Source: Phycisphaerales bacterium (GTDB taxonomy: Bacteria; Planctomycetota; Phycisphaerae; Tepidisphaerales; Tepidisphaeraceae). From it: 10,060 nucleotides of DNA. Position 1 is the stretch's first letter; every line of letters begins with the position of its first letter. The notes below the pieces were generated by a model that was given only the letters and a program-made list of their open reading frames with translations, made no database searches and had not been told where the DNA came from. Made by a program: the position numbers and the translations under genes. The stretch lies in the NCBI GenBank assembly GCA_003153655.1, contig PMAK01000028.1, positions 1 through 10,060 on the forward strand, written 5' to 3'. Shown one piece after another: positions 1 to 8,185 of the stretch.

Positions 1-431
1 ATGAATTCACCCCACACCATATTGCCGGTTATCCGATCTTCATTTTTTCCGTTCCGCCGCACGCGGGCTTTCATTTCCGCTTCCATCTCGGCCATTGTTT
101 CATCGACCGCGCTCCGGAACGCGGCCACGATTCGTTCGTCGCCCGTGACCGCGTGTAGCAGCGACACGCTTTTCGGCACATGGAAATTGAAATCGTATCC
201 GACCCGACGCTCGGACTTGCGGCGAACGGTCAGCGTCTGCCCCGTGCTCGGATCGCGATTGTCACATAGCGACTCCCACGCCGCCTGGTCTATCTTTCCG
301 CTTAATTTCAGGCGTGCGGCACCCTCGCCGCGCCAGACGCCCGCGCGTTCCTGGCCTTCGGTGTAATAGTCGCTGGTGCTGTAGTACGTCTTGGCACCAG
401 CCGACGAAACATTCTGAATTATGCGAAGCAT
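1..431 (-). CDS. MobF (TrwC/TraI-type) conjugative relaxase, N-terminal part, runs off the left edge
   Basis: Reading leftward from the ATG at 431-429, the complement encodes 143 residues without a stop and leaves the window. The start MLRIIQNVSSAGAKTYYSTS is followed by DYYTEG, VWRGEGAARLKLSGKID and GYDFNFHVPKSVSLLHAV. These match the TrwC/TraI relaxase N-terminus: paired tyrosines (residues 16-17 and 22-23) in the catalytic Tyr region, the W-x-G-x-G-A segment, and the hallmark D-F-x-F-x-x-PKSVS motif (residues 80-90). The family nicks one strand at oriT, stays bound through a tyrosine, and often carries a C-terminal helicase. The metal-binding histidines and any helicase lie outside the window. 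The start is the first ATG that fits the family alignment; no strong Shine-Dalgarno precedes it. Divergent orientation from the rest of the block is notable. Family call is secure; completeness cannot be judged. Confidence 0.9.
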   Translation of the reverse strand, partial: MLRIIQNVSSAGAKTYYSTSDYYTEGQERAGVWRGEGAARLKLSGKIDQAAWESLCDNRDPSTGQTLTVRRKSERRVGYDFNFHVPKSVSLLHAVTGDERIVAAFRSAVDETMAEMEAEMKARVRRNGKNEDRITGNMVWGEF

Positions 432-1366: not shown

Positions 1367-1579
1367 ATGAGCACTACCGAGAAAAACGAAACCACGACTT
1401 CCAAGCTGCCAAGCCACATCGCTTACGTGGTCCGTGACCGCGAAGGACAAAAGGCCTTCTTCACAAGGGTTGGCGCCGCGTGGCCGACCAAAGACGGCAA
1501 GGGATTCAATATCCAGCTTGACGCACTGCCGACCGATGGACGCATCACGCTTCTCGTCCCTTCGGAAAAGAAAGACTAA
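1367..1579 (+). CDS. Small conserved-looking protein of unknown function (70 aa)
   Basis: ATG at 1367 is preceded by AGGAG (1355-1359) with 7 bases of spacing, and the frame ends at TAA 1577-1579. After a polar N-terminus rich in Thr, Glu and Lys, residues about 16-63 contain IAYVVRDREGQKAFFTRVGA, then WPTKDGKGF, NIQLDALPTDGRITL and LVPSEKKD. The pattern of short beta-strands with the GAAW, KDGKGF and LDALP-DGR segments resembles small hypothetical proteins I associate with plasmids and conjugative elements of Proteobacteria and Planctomycetes. No function is known to me. It is the first gene of a small rightward operon and is followed by a strong hairpin. The call as a real gene is firm; the family memory is approximate. 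Confidence 0.8.
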   Translation: MSTTEKNETTTSKLPSHIAYVVRDREGQKAFFTRVGAAWPTKDGKGFNIQLDALPTDGRITLLVPSEKKD

Positions 1580-1845: not shown

Positions 1846-1992
1846 ATGACCGCAACCATCATCAATCCGTTCGACACCGACAGCGAATCCGACGCCGTGC
1901 CCTTGTCCGTGTTCGCGCAGCGCTGGGGCTATGCCAAGCTGCCTCAGTCACCGGTCAACGCAAGCCCGGTTCGCCGAACTGCTCGATGCTAA
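1846..1992 (+). pseudogene. Truncated 5' end of a third operon gene, disrupted by a junction near 1945-1960
   Basis: ATG at 1846 has a strong ribosome site (GGGAGG, 1834-1839, 6-base spacing) and begins one base after the previous stop. The first 34 residues (MTATIINPFDTDSESDAVPL, then SVFAQRWGYAKLPQ) read like a genuine protein start. After that, residues SPVNASPVRRTARC look like out-of-frame reading of the NACHT gene, and the frame stops at 1990-1992. The simplest explanation is that an insertion, deletion or recombination removed the rest of this gene and the beginning of the NACHT gene and joined the remainders out of frame. A sequencing error cannot be excluded. The parent family is not recognised. 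Confidence 0.6.
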
Positions 1993-4900
1993 CAATCCTC
2001 GCGCAGTCCCCGTGCATTTTGAACTAAAAAAGCTCACTAAAGCCTATGATAACGGAGAGGAATTCTTTCAGAAAAGGCTCGCGCCGACTTCCCACATCTG
2101 GCTTACGCCCCTGGCGGACGAAGGTAAGGTAGTATTCATTTTCGACGGTCTCGATGAAGTGGGGATCGATCAGGTTGATTTCCATCACATCTTCAAGACT
2201 CTCGTCGAGCGGTTCCCGGAGTGCTCCTGGGTTCTTGCTGGCCGCCCCGGAACACTTGGCGATCTAGACCAACTTTTTTCTGACGCTGCTGAGCACGAAC
2301 TCAAGCCACTCGAACTCTCTGAAATCCAGTACTACGTCAATGGCTATTTTGCCTATCGCGAAGTTCCCGATCTCGCCCCAAAACTGTTGTCGGAAATTCA
2401 GTCTAATCGGCGTTCGCTATTTCCAATCATCCAAACTCCGTTTATGCTGGCCTTCGCCTGCGATGGGTACTACGACCCCAAACGGACGGATCGGCACGAG
2501 CTTCCCTCCAATCCCGCCGAGCTGATCGAATCAGGTCTGAAACGAATCTTCGCTCGTCGTCGGCGTGGTAAGAGCGGCGCGGGCCTAAGCCTTCCTAAAT
2601 CAGACGAACTTTGCTTCGAGGTGCTTTCCACCCTCGCCGCATTTACGCTGGTAGAACCGAAACCCGGCGATCCGGTTCGGCTTACCTTCTCAACCGAGGC
2701 GGCCGAAAAATGGTTAGTCCAAAACCGAATGTCCTTTGAAGTCCCTGGTGTGAGCTATCGGCTGCAAGACGACGGTGATGCCAAGGAACTGCTCGACCGG
2801 CTTGCGCCGCAGAGCGGTATTTTGGTTGGAACTGACGAGGGCAAGTTTGCCTTTAGCAATCGAGTCATAGCCGAGTTCCTTGCCGCTCGTTGGATTGTGC
2901 GGCACGGTTACCCGAACTGGCCATACAGTTCTGACGAGATGGATTCACAATATACGAAACCTTTTCCGAGCCCTGAAACGGCAGCCCAGCGACTAGATCG
3001 CCAGATAATGGACTTCCTCGGCGACAATGTCTGGACGATAGATCGGAGTGCGCTTGTCCAAGCAGTCTGTTTTGAACTAGGTCGGCTCCCCAACGCCGGC
3101 AGCAGATTGATGCGATTTGTTCGATGGACGTGCAAACAGCTCGATTCATTTGAGGAAGGACAGGTAACGAATTTTCAAATTCGAAAGACGCTCGTCACCC
3201 GGGTCTTTCGTACGTTCCAAGCATTGCACGGTCCGCACACCGCCGAGCAAATCGCTGAGATCGAGGCGTGCGCACATCGCCTTATCCCAGCGACTGATTT
3301 GTGGTGGAATACTGATCTCGCCGGCTTCGACATACAATGCCTTCCAGCGTCATGTAAAGCGGAATATTCGGAAGAGTTTTTGCGGGCGCTGGAGGAGGCC
3401 AGCAGGAACCCGAAAGAGAATTGGGGCAGATCCGTTTATCTTACGCTTGGGATCGCCTCGGGGCTTCTAATTGATGCGAAGCAGAAGGATCGGGCCTTTG
3501 CAGCCTTGTCGGCCGCGCTGAAGGCGGCAACCGAGGATCGGAAGGAACATTGGTCGACGGTGGAATTTCTAGCTCGCGGTATTGTCTCGGGCTTTGCAAC
3601 CGAGATGACGTGGAAGAAGCAGGCCTTCGGTGCCTTGTCGGTTGCGCTGGATATCGCGATCAAACACTCAAAATCGATCGAGGTCAGCGACCTGACCGAC
3701 GCGATTGTCTCGGGCTTTGCAACCGATGCAGAGTTGAAGAAGCCAGCTTTGGACGCTTTGTGCGGGGCGCTGGACATTGCGAGCAAGCGATCGATGAGAA
3801 TCGATAGCCTTTGCCTCGCAATTGCTTCAGGCTTCGCAGGCGATGCAGAATTGAAGACGCAGGCACTCGACGCATTGCTCGCAGTTCTAGAGTTGTCGAG
3901 CAAACACCCGATCTCTATCTACAATCTTTGCGATGCAATTGTTTCAGGGTTTTCGGGAGACCCACATTTGAGCGGCCGGACGCGCCGCGCGTTCTCGATT
4001 GCGCTGCACGCACTCGCCAATCGTCCAAAAGAGAAGTGGGATGCTATTAGTTGCGTCGCCTGCACGATCGCTTCGAACTTTCCAATGGATGTTGAGTTGA
4101 AAAAGCTGGCGCGTGAGTCCATGTTGGTTGCTCTAAACGCGGGCAGCAAACACGCAACGAATAGGTGGCACGCAATCAACGGGCTGTTTCGTGCGATCGC
4201 CTTGAATTTTCCAGCCGATGACGAGTTGAAGGGAAGGTCGCTCGACGTGTTGTTGTTGACTCTTGACGCGACCGGTGAGCACCCAACGAAGGAGTGGGAT
4301 GGAATAGATTCAATTGTCCGTACGATTGTCTCCTTTGCGGCCGATGAAAAGCACAAGACGCGGGCAAGCAAGGTCTTGTTGGCGATGCTGGTCGTGGCCG
4401 AAAAAGATCGAGAGGGAAACTGGCTCGAAGTCTATTTCCTTGTAAATGCGATTGCCACGAGCTTTGGATGCGACGCGAAGTTGAGAGAGCGAGTGCTAAA
4501 CGTCCTGTCGTCGTGGCTCAACGCGGCATGTATGGACCCGAAAGCAGAACTTAGCCGTGTCAATTTGCTGGCAAATACGGTCAGTTCGGGCTTTGCAACA
4601 GACGCAAACTTGAAAGGTCAAGCGCGCGACGCATTATTCGCAGCGCTGAATTCGGTCAGTACGGAGCTCAGGTACAACTTTCGGGCAATCGGTAATCTCG
4701 CTGTCGAGATCGCATCGGGCTTTGGAGCTGACGAGAAGTTGAAGCACCAGGCTTGCGACTCCTTTTTAGCGGCCCTGGACGCGGCCGGCAAAAACCCAAA
4801 AGAAGAGCATGGCTTTCTGGAACATCTGGCAAACGCGATTACCTCGGGGCCCGTAGCGGATACGAAACAGAAGGAACGTGCGTTCCAGGCTTTGCTCGCT

Positions 4901-5791
4901 GCATTGGTCGGCGCTAGCAATCACTGGCGTCAGAACACGGAGTGGATCGGATTTTTGGCCAACACGATTGTCTCATGTTTCGGGCGCGAGTCGAAGTTCA
5001 GAGAACATGCACGCGATGCCTTGGTGACGGCACTATCCGAAGCCGCTAAGGATCGGCGGGAGAGCCATTCGGCATGCCGACGGCTGGCCCAGGCGGTTGG
5101 GTCAGGCTTTCCAGGGGATCTGATAGCCGCTGCCGCAATTGTGGGCGCCGAATGTCGTAGCGTGCTTGATCGTGAAAAGTGGGACTTGTTCGTGACGCTG
5201 CACGGCGATTGGCAGGTATTGTGCGAATGGGCCGGTCCGCGAGGTGAGCGTTTGGGCCTCACGTCCGGAGATCAGATCATTGAGAAGGTACATACTCGTG
5301 ATTCGGACGGCAAAAATTCGAGCTTGGCCGTGCTGGTAGCACCCCGAGAGAAGATTCGCCGCGGCCTGTCGGCGGAGTTGCTCGAAGACATCCAGCGGGT
5401 CGATCGCAAGGCAACAACCGTATCAAATGATATGGAATTACGGCAGACGAGTGGGGTCGGGAACGCTCCCGCGGTAGAAAATCGGCGTTTGCAGCGAACG
5501 TGCCGTCTCAAGGTGGATCTGGTGTCACGAAATATCTATCTCGACGGAGAGCCAATACCTCACACGTCCATTTTAGCCTGTGAAATTGTGCAACGTTTAA
5601 TTGACGCTGACGGCGGAATCATGCCGCCAGATAAACTTCTTCCTGATGACAAGGCGAACAATGCTGAGTTGAAGGATCGTGTGAGAGACGCGATGAACCA
5701 TCTGGATCCGAGCGTGCGTCGATTAGTCGGCGGAAAATCTGGCCAGGGCGGGGGGCGTTTTCTGAGACCGGACGCTTTTGAATTGCGATGA
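1931..5791 (+). CDS. NACHT NTPase with tandem helical repeats and C-terminal winged helix, 5'-truncated, lacking a recognisable P-loop
   Basis: This is a 1286-codon open frame. Residues 65-78 (GKVVFIFDGLDEVG) are a textbook NACHT Walker B, with acidic residues D72, D75 and E76. CSWVLAGRPG (98-107) is the following strand with its Arg. FPIIQTPFMLAFACDGYY and ELIESGLKRIFARR (about 160-215) are the NACHT helical portion. GKFAFSNRVIAEFLAARWIV (about 304-323) matches the usual F-(S)H-x-x-x-x-EFLAA end of such modules, with Asn for His. Residues about 503-1051 are about 13 repeats of 39-43 residues, and 1191-1286 resemble an OmpR/PhoB winged helix. No P-loop is visible: HRSTQARFAELL near the start occupies the GKST position but lacks the Gly-Lys. 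ATG 1931 has no ribosome site and the upstream frame is unrelated, so the native 5' end, including any effector domain, is probably missing. STAND/NACHT proteins act in signalling and phage defence. Whether this one is expressed is doubtful. Confidence 0.75.
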   Translation: MPSCLSHRSTQARFAELLDANNPRAVPVHFELKKLTKAYDNGEEFFQKRLAPTSHIWLTPLADEGKVVFIFDGLDEVGIDQVDFHHIFKTLVERFPECSWVLAGRPGTLGDLDQLFSDAAEHELKPLELSEIQYYVNGYFAYREVPDLAPKLLSEIQSNRRSLFPIIQTPFMLAFACDGYYDPKRTDRHELPSNPAELIESGLKRIFARRRRGKSGAGLSLPKSDELCFEVLSTLAAFTLVEPKPGDPVRLTFSTEAAEKWLVQNRMSFEVPGVSYRLQDDGDAKELLDRLAPQSGILVGTDEGKFAFSNRVIAEFLAARWIVRHGYPNWPYSSDEMDSQYTKPFPSPETAAQRLDRQIMDFLGDNVWTIDRSALVQAVCFELGRLPNAGSRLMRFVRWTCKQLDSFEEGQVTNFQIRKTLVTRVFRTFQALHGPHTAEQIAEIEACAHRLIPATDLWWNTDLAGFDIQCLPASCKAEYSEEFLRALEEASRNPKENWGRSVYLTLGIASGLLIDAKQKDRAFAALSAALKAATEDRKEHWSTVEFLARGIVSGFATEMTWKKQAFGALSVALDIAIKHSKSIEVSDLTDAIVSGFATDAELKKPALDALCGALDIASKRSMRIDSLCLAIASGFAGDAELKTQALDALLAVLELSSKHPISIYNLCDAIVSGFSGDPHLSGRTRRAFSIALHALANRPKEKWDAISCVACTIASNFPMDVELKKLARESMLVALNAGSKHATNRWHAINGLFRAIALNFPADDELKGRSLDVLLLTLDATGEHPTKEWDGIDSIVRTIVSFAADEKHKTRASKVLLAMLVVAEKDREGNWLEVYFLVNAIATSFGCDAKLRERVLNVLSSWLNAACMDPKAELSRVNLLANTVSSGFATDANLKGQARDALFAALNSVSTELRYNFRAIGNLAVEIASGFGADEKLKHQACDSFLAALDAAGKNPKEEHGFLEHLANAITSGPVADTKQKERAFQALLAALVGASNHWRQNTEWIGFLANTIVSCFGRESKFREHARDALVTALSEAAKDRRESHSACRRLAQAVGSGFPGDLIAAAAIVGAECRSVLDREKWDLFVTLHGDWQVLCEWAGPRGERLGLTSGDQIIEKVHTRDSDGKNSSLAVLVAPREKIRRGLSAELLEDIQRVDRKATTVSNDMELRQTSGVGNAPAVENRRLQRTCRLKVDLVSRNIYLDGEPIPHTSILACEIVQRLIDADGGIMPPDKLLPDDKANNAELKDRVRDAMNHLDPSVRRLVGGKSGQGGGRFLRPDAFELR
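3437..5083 (+). repeat. About 13 tandem protein-coding repeats of ~129 bases inside the NACHT gene
   Basis: Each unit begins with a pattern like L-x-x-A-I-x-SGF-x-x-D-x-x-L-K, continues with A-x-x-A-L-x-x-A-L-x-x-A, and ends with a polar stretch, often with Lys-Pro-Lys and Trp, before the next unit. Thirteen units fit between residues 503 and 1051, with a partial fourteenth (LAQAVGSGFPGD) after that. Two neighbours share an identical 23-base stretch (3581-3603 and 3704-3726), which points to duplication by slippage or unequal crossing-over. Each unit should form a helix pair, giving a solenoid like TPR or HEAT arrays, though the consensus matches neither exactly. In NACHT and Avs proteins this position is the sensor. 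Confidence 0.85.
5501..5788 (+). other. C-terminal OmpR/PhoB-like winged-helix segment of the NACHT protein
   Basis: Residues 1191-1286 begin CRLKVDLVSRNIYLDGEPIP, the beta-strand start of the Trans_reg_C fold (hydrophobic-x-x-D-x-x-x-R-x-I-x-hydrophobic-DGE). They then pass through helices TSILACEIVQRLIDADGGIM and AELKDRVRDAMNHLDPSVRR, and end at a Gly-rich wing before RFLRPD. The order and spacing match the OmpR/PhoB DNA-binding domain, where the wing normally ends in G-x-G-Y-R. Here the wing reads SGQGGGRFL. A DNA-binding or protein-interaction role is inferred from the fold only. Confidence 0.6.
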
Positions 5792-5985: not shown

Positions 5986-7017
5986 ATGCTCCCAGATGCA
6001 CTTTCTCCAGAAAAGATCGCCGTCACGAGTGATTCGTCCGCGGTACGGAATCTTCTGGAACTGGAGTTCGCGGTCACTCGTATCCCTGTCTCGCTTCGTG
6101 ATATCGATCTACGGCCTAATGCCATGATCGCCGTGCCGGGCGAGGTCATTCCCTGCACGCAAAGTTTTCTGGAAGCGCTGGCATCGTCGATCAGCATGCC
6201 CATCCCATATGCATACCAGATTGACTCCGACTTGTTCAAGCATAATTTCGACCGGCGCAAAATCGTTAAAGATCGAGCTGTTCAAGTTTGTGTAGTTTCT
6301 CAACGGGCCGTAGGTCTCGCAGGTGCCGAATACCGCCCGGCGCGGACAATCGACGTGTTGGAGGCACTGGATTCAATCAACGAAGATTTCTGGAGTTTCC
6401 AGAAAGTTTCGCTATCTGACGTCGGCGTGGAGATTGACTTGGTCAGCGATGATGTCGCGGAACCCAAGCCGGGCGATCAAATTCGGTTGGGTGTTCGAAT
6501 CGTCAATTCCGAGACGGGGGATACTGGGCTCAAGGCATCCCTCTTTAGCCACCGGCTAGTTTGTTCCAACGGGGCGGTGATGCGGGACACCCTGGGGACG
6601 ATCCGTTGGAATTACGATAATCGCGTAACGTACGTTTCCAGCATCGCCAAGTTCGGGCGGGGGCTGCTGAGTCTTCGCGCCAGTCAGGGCCAATTGAAAT
6701 CGATCTATGCGGAAGCGGTCGAGCGTCCGATCCTGGAAGAAGACATCGTTCGCCTTTGGAGGCGGATTCGGTCTGCGGGCCGTTTCACGCCAGAGCGCAC
6801 TGACCAAGTGCTGGAAATCACTTCTGAGGAGCGGCTACGTTTTCATTCGGTGGTAAATGAGCGAAGGGCGATGGGCTTGCCTGAAGTCGCCAGTGACCGA
6901 GACATCTATCACGTCCACAACTCCATTACGGCAGCGGCCCGCTCGCTGCCATTCCACACACGTTCCCGCCTGGAACGCATCGGCGGGGATGTACTGAGCT
7001 TTTACGCGTCAAATTGA
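5986..7017 (+). CDS. DUF932 family protein (phage/plasmid-like protein), 343 aa
   Basis: ATG at 5986 has AAAGGA (5973-5978) 7 bases upstream. A GTG at 5959 in the same frame lacks that support and would add nine charged residues, so 5986 is chosen. The product is soluble with no signal peptide. A central region SFQKVSLSDVGVEIDLVSDD is followed by GDQIRLGVRIVNSETGDTGL, and then SLFSHRLVCSNGAVMRDTLG. The pattern of a mixed beta core containing 'R-x-x-C-x-N-G' before a helical C-terminus with RFHSVVNERR is typical of DUF932 (also annotated phage/plasmid-like TIGR03299) proteins. The family occurs widely on plasmids, phages and conjugative elements. Its biochemical role is not established, although DNA maintenance has been suggested. 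It opens the rightward accessory block. Confidence 0.75.
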   Translation: MLPDALSPEKIAVTSDSSAVRNLLELEFAVTRIPVSLRDIDLRPNAMIAVPGEVIPCTQSFLEALASSISMPIPYAYQIDSDLFKHNFDRRKIVKDRAVQVCVVSQRAVGLAGAEYRPARTIDVLEALDSINEDFWSFQKVSLSDVGVEIDLVSDDVAEPKPGDQIRLGVRIVNSETGDTGLKASLFSHRLVCSNGAVMRDTLGTIRWNYDNRVTYVSSIAKFGRGLLSLRASQGQLKSIYAEAVERPILEEDIVRLWRRIRSAGRFTPERTDQVLEITSEERLRFHSVVNERRAMGLPEVASDRDIYHVHNSITAAARSLPFHTRSRLERIGGDVLSFYASN

Positions 7018-7375: not shown

Positions 7376-8185
7376 ATGCCAATGGAACAGATTCAGTATT
7401 TTCCTCCAGAACGACTCAAGACAGTTTCGCAAGTAAGAACGCGAAAGAATCCGGAGATCGTTCGCGCTATTGCTCAAACAATGCGCGAGGTGGGGCAGCT
7501 TCAACCCATACGTGCGCGGCGAGAGGGAGAGGAGTTAATCGTAGTCGAGGGTCATACGAGACTTGAGGCGGCGAAACTCGCCGGATTAGCGACCGTCGCA
7601 GTCATTATCGAGGAAAAGCCGTTGTGCGAGGGCGAAGTGATTCTTCGGCAACTGGTCGCCAACTGCCAGCGTGAAGATTTGGCGCCGATGGAGAAAGCAC
7701 GAGCGATCAGCCGGCTGTTAACTGAGACGAGTTGGCCGGCAACGCTGGCTGCCGAAAAGCTCGGATTTTCCAATGCGACGGTGAGCCGCCTACTGGCAAT
7801 ACTTGAATTGCCCGAACCAATCCGGCGGCAGGTGGAGTCGGGAGCGATCTCATACTCGGCCGCCACCGAGCTTGGGCGTGTTGAGGACGAAATCCAGCAA
7901 GCAGAGCTAGCCGGTCAGGTGGCAGGCGGGCTCACGCGCGATGCCCTCAGTGGATCGCTCAAAGCCCGACGCAGAGGAACCGCGGCTCGCAGCCTCGATT
8001 CGCCGGCACGGGTGACGGCTCTGCTTGGGGCGGGCCGGTCAGTGACGCTCAACGGACCGGGCCTGACCCTTGAATCTTTGATCACCTGGCTGGAGGAGCT
8101 TCTTGCACGAGCGCGCAAAGTGCGTCCGCAAGGCCTCGAATTGAAAACATTCATAAAAATGCTCAAGGACCAGTCTAAGGCCTGA
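7376..8185 (+). CDS. ParB/RepB/Spo0J-family DNA-binding protein (269 aa)
   Basis: ATG at 7376 is preceded by GAGGT (7366-7370) with 5-base spacing. Domains in order: an N-terminal ParB nucleotide-binding domain (about 5-108) with GQLQPIRARREGEELIVVEG, H60-T-R-L-E-A in the place of the usual GERR box, and NCQREDLAPMEKARA (97-110), matching the E-N-I-Q-R-x-x-L-x-P-x-E-x-A motif; then a helix-turn-helix (about 118-165) with SWPATLAAEKLGFSNATVSR; then a variable C-terminal region with a possible coiled segment (about 232-250) that could dimerise. Family members bind parS-like sites, slide as CTP-dependent clamps in segregation, or act as plasmid transcription regulators such as KorB. No ParA ATPase gene is adjacent within the window, so regulation or a ParA-independent role is possible. 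No ParB site was identified. Confidence 0.9.
   Translation: MPMEQIQYFPPERLKTVSQVRTRKNPEIVRAIAQTMREVGQLQPIRARREGEELIVVEGHTRLEAAKLAGLATVAVIIEEKPLCEGEVILRQLVANCQREDLAPMEKARAISRLLTETSWPATLAAEKLGFSNATVSRLLAILELPEPIRRQVESGAISYSAATELGRVEDEIQQAELAGQVAGGLTRDALSGSLKARRRGTAARSLDSPARVTALLGAGRSVTLNGPGLTLESLITWLEELLARARKVRPQGLELKTFIKMLKDQSKA

Follow-up and report, generated by a model that had tools for sequence, protein, structure and literature searches.

The window, as we call the whole 10,060-nucleotide stretch analyzed here (start of contig PMAK01000028.1, Phycisphaerales assembly GCA_003153655.1), holds a piece of a relaxase gene, a small backbone gene, the beginning of a DNA methyltransferase gene, a long open reading frame (ORF) in which part of a NACHT domain precedes helical repeats, a DUF932-like gene, and a ParB-like gene (Table 1). 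Further on, the contig encodes a coupling protein (TraG-D_C, E 6e-7) and a phage-type integrase (E 4e-18), which adjoins a tRNA-Gln gene. With a relaxase, a coupling protein, and an integrase beside tRNA-Gln, the host of these genes is, judging by gene content, an integrative conjugative element (ICE), and a preliminary description of the DNA was right to place the ORF among conjugation genes. The DUF932-like gene, matched in 2 of 246 genomes of the phylum (its own included), probably belongs to the cargo. For the relaxase piece, the top two plasmid matches listed are from Planctomycetota and the third from Runella, and in 11 of 392 phylum genomes, again counting its own, the relaxase-helicase was matched at E ≤ 1e-60. 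The same genome contains a second, different MOBF relaxase-helicase gene (L037, on contig C7, 3 to 2441, minus strand), whose pieces are 50 to 68% identical and whose frame is split near a run of unknown bases.

Table 1. Features of the window and one gene of contig C273 (positions in nucleotides)
Feature	Position	Strand	Basis and remarks
MOBF (TrwC) relaxase, N-terminal part	3..431	-	PF08751, E 8e-36; runs off contig
Small backbone gene of the element	1367..1579	+	Homologues adjoin relaxase in L033, L034, and L036 (3 of 18 stretches)
DNA methyltransferase gene remnant, first ~42 codons	1846..1971	+	Cut at junction; match to L034
ORF, 1286 aa	1931..5791	+	ORF listing
Spurious ORF start	1931..1971	+	Methyltransferase-gene DNA in another frame; context of ATG 1931
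Junction J5 into NACHT gene	1966..1978	+	CGGTTCGCCGAAC; compared with P0001 residues RLAELL
3' part of NACHT gene	1973..5386	+	Window residues ~15-1152, 97% identical to P0001
NACHT domain, C-terminal part only	2081..2353	+	PF05729 profile; Walker B present, Walker A absent
Alpha-alpha repeat array	3317..5056	+	13 strong 43-aa units and a degenerate first unit
Short alpha/beta segment, ending in LVAPREKIRRGL	5189..5359	+	Conserved across family; alignment, AlphaFold2
C-terminal tail, 134 aa	5387..5788	+	Unlike P0001 tail; candidate winged helix ~5504-5788
DUF932-like gene	5986..7017	+	PF06067, E 0.015, below cut-off
ParB-like backbone gene	7376..8185	+	Profile match, locus comparison
AAA_15/DUF3696-like ATPase gene	L004 (C273) 2800-4152	-	Without C-terminal part

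Gene order around the relaxase was compared in 18 stretches (16 genomic and 2 plasmid, some of which end at contig ends). Relaxase and ParB were both matched in five of them, always on the same strand, whereas they are opposed in the window. In four of the five (L033, L034, L035, and L048) the relaxase is followed by a gene for a 137-aa protein, a gap of 0.8 to 6.2 kb, and ParB. The exception is plasmid pK2D, with ParB lying before the relaxase and the coupling gene oriented against it, so this gene order is not universal. No ParB match lies within the remaining 13 stretches, nor in L037. The gap between the relaxase/137-aa gene and ParB is a cargo slot: it is occupied by a 727-aa HEAT protein in L033 (14830 to 17013) and by a 540-aa leucine-rich repeat (LRR) protein in L034 (6341 to 7963), while one ORF tested in the L035 slot gave no Pfam family and the L048 gap could not accommodate a gene of this size. 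The annotation of plasmid PALBO2, where our search gave no ParB match, likewise shows a HEAT protein flanked by the relaxase and a same-strand gene of ParB type.

The preliminary description had read the ORF as a NACHT NTPase with a 13-unit helical repeat array, a C-terminal OmpR-like winged helix, and a missing N terminus. The NACHT core is real: profile PF05729 matches with an E value of 2.4e-9 and 37.7 bits, above the gathering cut-off of 26.7 bits. The match spans ORF residues 51 to 141 and profile positions 67 to 165 of 167; the P-loop half of the profile, with its Walker A motif, is absent from the ORF. Walker B (FIFDGLDE) is visible, as are AGRPG and EFLAA, and the pattern NR..AE.LAA.WI is unchanged in all eight aligned sequences. 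The start of the ORF, which had been counted as NACHT, proved not to be: residues 1 to ~14 are an out-of-frame reading of the 5' end of the methyltransferase gene. In the methyltransferase frame, 1846 to ~1971 reads 'ARLPQAPINTSPV', against 'AKLPQSPVNASPV' from position 12078 of L034 (33% identity over 42 aa, E 0.003 in a search of the fetched loci only), where the protein has 261 aa with DPMSGSGT and HPPYW motifs. The rest of the methyltransferase gene was not found in its own genome (88% complete). A proposed link between the remnant and contig C29 was rejected, the C29 gene being a different methyltransferase, 30% identical.

What the ORF lacks was found in its relatives. At least seven protein clusters match it in a set of 5.8 billion proteins (the best 7,991 word-sharing candidates being scored), and a profile search of a large protein set gave at least nine, two of them marginal (again scoring the best word-sharing candidates); the earlier remark that the arrangement was not a recognized one is therefore fair. 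Full-length homologues, which the preliminary description had proposed to look for, exist. The nearest of those scored, P0001, is an intact protein of 1504 aa, encoded on three contigs (the longest of 128 kb), in which an N-terminal part of ~100 aa precedes a full P-loop, GEGGMGKTE. The Walker A motif is found in P0001, P0002, P0004, P0006, and P0007, as well as in a gene piece on C273, a further contig of this genome (GEGGxGKTE), and the N-terminal motif LPR..C...R.T.D is invariant in six aligned sequences. Before the P-loop, Pfam detected no effector family in the five relatives having this part or in the C273 piece, and modeling of the N-terminal piece gave a structure of low confidence (mean pLDDT of 53.8), to which we assign no fold.

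In the sets that were searched the family has few members, and it merits testing. Close relatives were not found in viral contigs; searches of 392 genomes of the phylum and 26 of the order returned only its own genome; contigs of GTDB genomes yielded one distant Bradyrhizobium locus (26% identity over P0001 residues 105 to 439); and four plasmid records match the ORF, with 22 to 24% identity over 21 to 23% of its length. The HEAT cargo of L033 has no detectable relation to P0001 (best E 0.13). Against PADLOC, the window protein matched no family at E ≤ 10, and five relatives gave weak matches only, mostly to the P-loop and none to Avs models.

When its own genome was searched with P0001, two places were found: the window (P0001 residues 118 to 1268) and C273:2438-2815, which corresponds to P0001 residues 1 to 126 with 96% identity. 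The 1286-aa ORF is thus part of a broken NACHT gene and not a whole gene, and it is without Walker A because it begins inside that gene. The N terminus is indeed missing from the ORF, most likely through the gene break; the piece on C273 supplies ~100 aa before the P-loop, in which no recognized effector was detected, though one of an unfamiliar kind may be there. The junction on C273 reads CGGCTCGTCGAAC, and RLAELL of P0001 fits CGGCTCGCCGAAC; with codon choice inferred in this way, each junction has one base unlike the sequence implied by P0001. The ends of the two pieces are only a few bases apart in the gene, and we estimate the odds of independent breaks falling this close together by chance in a gene of ~4 kb at roughly 1 in 500. 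Since the P-loop is absent from the window copy, the usual NTP binding should not be expected of it and inactivity is probable; the copy is probably a pseudogene.

Contig C273 (6638 bases) carries the helicase part of the relaxase, the 137-aa gene, the NACHT N terminus, and, both on the strand opposite to it, genes for an AAA_15/DUF3696-like ATPase and a DEAD helicase/methylase. Because both this contig and the window contig (C169, with the N-terminal 143 codons) begin inside the relaxase gene, we infer that the two are neighbors, with ~90 relaxase codons missing between them as measured on L033. The NACHT halves would then flank the relaxase in opposite orientation. The AAA_15 protein resembles candidate defense ATPases (PADLOC HEC-03B, E 5e-33, the best of 125 families), which agrees with defense cargo, though this gene is likewise broken: its relatives on plasmids (n = 2) run ~130 codons longer past the cut. 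The frame of the DEAD helicase/methylase stops after 826 residues, and a relative on one plasmid has ~760 more codons past the cut. The AAA_15 gene starts exactly at the cut of the DEAD helicase/methylase gene.

We consider it probable, though by no means firmly so, that the window holds the remains of a NACHT/STAND sensor gene broken by inversion in the cargo slot of an ICE, the intact form being a STAND switch with an exchangeable tail. The gene would have sat between the small gene that follows the relaxase and ParB; an inversion of ~5 kb including the relaxase would have broken it a few codons past Walker A and carried the N-terminal piece across the relaxase. The opposed relaxase and ParB of the window, which share a strand in every stretch holding both, fit an inversion that includes the relaxase. 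Were the segment turned back, NACHT would be in one piece, in the same relaxase-ParB slot as the cargo of related elements. Reversal alone would not repair the far side, where the methyltransferase and AAA_15 genes are both cut, and so either DNA was lost at that breakpoint, which together with a single inversion is the simplest reading, or further events took place.

A rather unlikely reading, to be taken seriously nonetheless, is that the cell has an intact P0001-like gene and that the assembly is a chimera, wrongly joined at window position ~1971 and C273 position ~2815. The assembly is fragmented (304 contigs), the relaxase itself is broken between contigs, and two more genes of C273 are cut, which makes many joins for 7 kb. 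Against this, the two joins coincide in their position within NACHT, and at each one a base is unlike the P0001-implied sequence, as would be so at real recombinant ends. Two 14-base words common to the contigs are not at the junctions, a weak argument given that the unbroken methyltransferase gene was unavailable for comparison.

The repeat array is as real as the NACHT core. Self-similarity peaks at a period of 43 aa (0.43, whereas none of 500 shuffles exceeded -0.49), and 13 strong units of 32 residues, spaced 39 to 43 aa from start to start, occupy ORF residues 506 to 1042, with a weaker one at 463. An AlphaFold2 model of ORF residues 381 to 1286, built from eight aligned sequences and leaving NACHT outside, predicts two helices per unit forming a regular alpha-alpha solenoid (pTM of 0.50), with ten-residue means of pLDDT in the array mostly of 72 to 92 and dips to 55 to 67. 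Large proteins built of helical repeats, most often HEAT-type karyopherins, make up nearly all of the best 50 Foldseek matches listed, and in PDB the best E value among the 50 is 2.7e-5, with TM scores by query length of 0.09 to 0.36; such matches to transport receptors indicate a fold class, not homology. The 43-aa repeats are thus modeled as a HEAT-like solenoid, and it lies C-terminal to the NTPase core, as expected of a STAND protein. In P0005, residues ~320 to 860 form 39-aa repeats that are much more alike than those of the window (self-similarity of 2.73 vs. 0.43), a uniformity suggesting that units were recently gained and lost.

The end of the protein was harder to place. The window protein and P0001 share at least 57 identical residues in every 60 from residue 61 up to ~1152 (1057 of 1080 aligned residues, ~98%, over 61 to 1140), and beyond ~1152 their similarity is not significant (best E 0.90). 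By eye in the alignment, the tails of P0001, P0002, and P0004 are alike and those of P0005, P0006, and P0007 different again; given the former likeness, the P0001-type tail is probably the usual one and the window tail a replacement. The same tail join occurs in P0010, a 209-aa protein encoded on a 1143-base contig, which by eye differs upstream at one residue and argues against a one-off error in the window contig, though P0010 may come from the same sample or genome. Codon statistics, a weak signal, favor the gene's own frame on both sides of the tail junction, which suggests that the tail is coding. It was found only in its own genome among 294 phylum genomes, in no plasmid, and, in the large protein set within length limits of ~137 to 437 aa (longer tail-bearing proteins falling outside), only in P0010. 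A gapped match to L053 (best E 0.002) in a search of other fetched loci was taken as chance.

The OmpR-like winged helix that had been assigned to this tail found no backing. Alone, the tail matched nothing in Pfam or among PDB sequences at E ≤ 10, its sole NCBIfam match being sigma70-ECF at E 0.17 (11.5 bits, cut-off 42.9), and the AlphaFold2 model has pLDDT below 50 over most of it; a winged helix there is still a suggestion. Of the checks that had been proposed, the profile search favored the NACHT domain and the structure prediction the solenoid. Another reading is that the protein is not for defense and is instead a MalT-like STAND regulator whose C-terminal DNA-binding output controls transfer of the element. 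The preliminary description saw a winged-helix pattern, which the predicted tail elements (short strands, a helix, and two helices, in that order) do not contradict, and a STAND protein with a tetratricopeptide repeat (TPR) sensor has a precedent in MalT, as described in part of PMC6468293. The tail is not conserved across the family, and it has neither a helix-turn-helix profile nor structural support, which makes the regulator quite improbable.

Least probable by far is a programmed, reversible inversion in which recombination between short inverted sequences at the junctions would turn the sensor gene on and off: the junctions are alike (CGG.TCG.CGAAC, with a GTTCGnCGAAC-like palindromic core) and the element encodes a tyrosine-type integrase, but the likeness extends over only ~13 bases with two differences and is partly inherent in both being NACHT ends, reversal would not restore the truncated far-side genes, and the flipped order is seen in none of the five stretches holding both relaxase and ParB.

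Returning to the inversion-broken sensor, we picture its intact, P0001-type form as follows. The HEAT-like solenoid would recognize a ligand, perhaps a protein of a phage or competing element; NTP exchange in the NACHT core would then permit oligomerization; the short conserved N terminus might be an oligomerization or adaptor part; and the exchangeable module behind the LVAPREKIRRGL segment would set output or choice of partner. In our view, an N terminus that is short, conserved, and without a known domain, together with a variable extreme C terminus, points to a solenoid that senses, a NACHT domain that switches, and a tail that gives the output or selects the partner. This role of the tail, suggested by its variability, is the least certain step. 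We would go further only as a doubtful conjecture: a STAND family with its output at the opposite end (short conserved N terminus, NACHT, HEAT-like sensor, and a cassette-like C-terminal module), the module being swapped by recombination between near-identical alleles on conjugative elements, related elements filling the slot with LRR and HEAT proteins. P0001 on the one hand and the window protein and P0010 on the other, near-identical before a single point and unrelated beyond it, amount to a natural swap experiment. Should intact members prove active, conjugative elements would carry NLR-like sensors whose C-terminal module can be exchanged, the reverse of the common layout with the effector at the N terminus. 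Read as raw sequence, a window may lend a broken gene the appearance of a novel architecture: the striking architecture described at first is a broken gene with a replaced tail, its component features being real.

Avs proteins combine a STAND core with a repeat sensor, and the tail of MalT binds DNA. STAND defense proteins have an N-terminal effector, a central NTPase, and a C-terminal sensor, as outlined in parts of PMC12169576 and PMC10907252. A literature search gave no paper joining NACHT, 'integrative and conjugative', and Planctomycet, which does not imply absence from print, and conflict systems with NACHT domains and HEAT repeats, some planctomycete, have been described, the present arrangement not being among those in the available part of the source (PMC7159879). 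Like the bNACHT antiphage proteins as characterized in part of PMC12169576, the family has a central PF05729 NACHT, a long C-terminal region, and a location on mobile DNA. It differs from them in having no recognized N-terminal effector, in its conserved ~100-aa N terminus, in its variable tail behind a regular solenoid, and in its defense role being putative; one of their clades, 14, is likewise reported there to have no discernible N-terminal effector. With Avs it shares the STAND core and repeat sensor (PMC10907252), whereas PADLOC assigns the window protein to no family and its five relatives weakly to other models. MalT/LuxR-type STAND regulators also have a STAND core, helical repeats, and a further part after them (in part, PMC6468293), whereas the core here is of NACHT type and the tail only putatively DNA-binding. 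Finally, the N-terminal part of the relaxase is 49 to 50% identical to those of the Planctomycetota plasmids pK2D, which is typed as MOBF, and PALBO2, where the gene is named mobF; these plasmids have other cargo and gene order, whereas the element described here is integrated beside tRNA-Gln.
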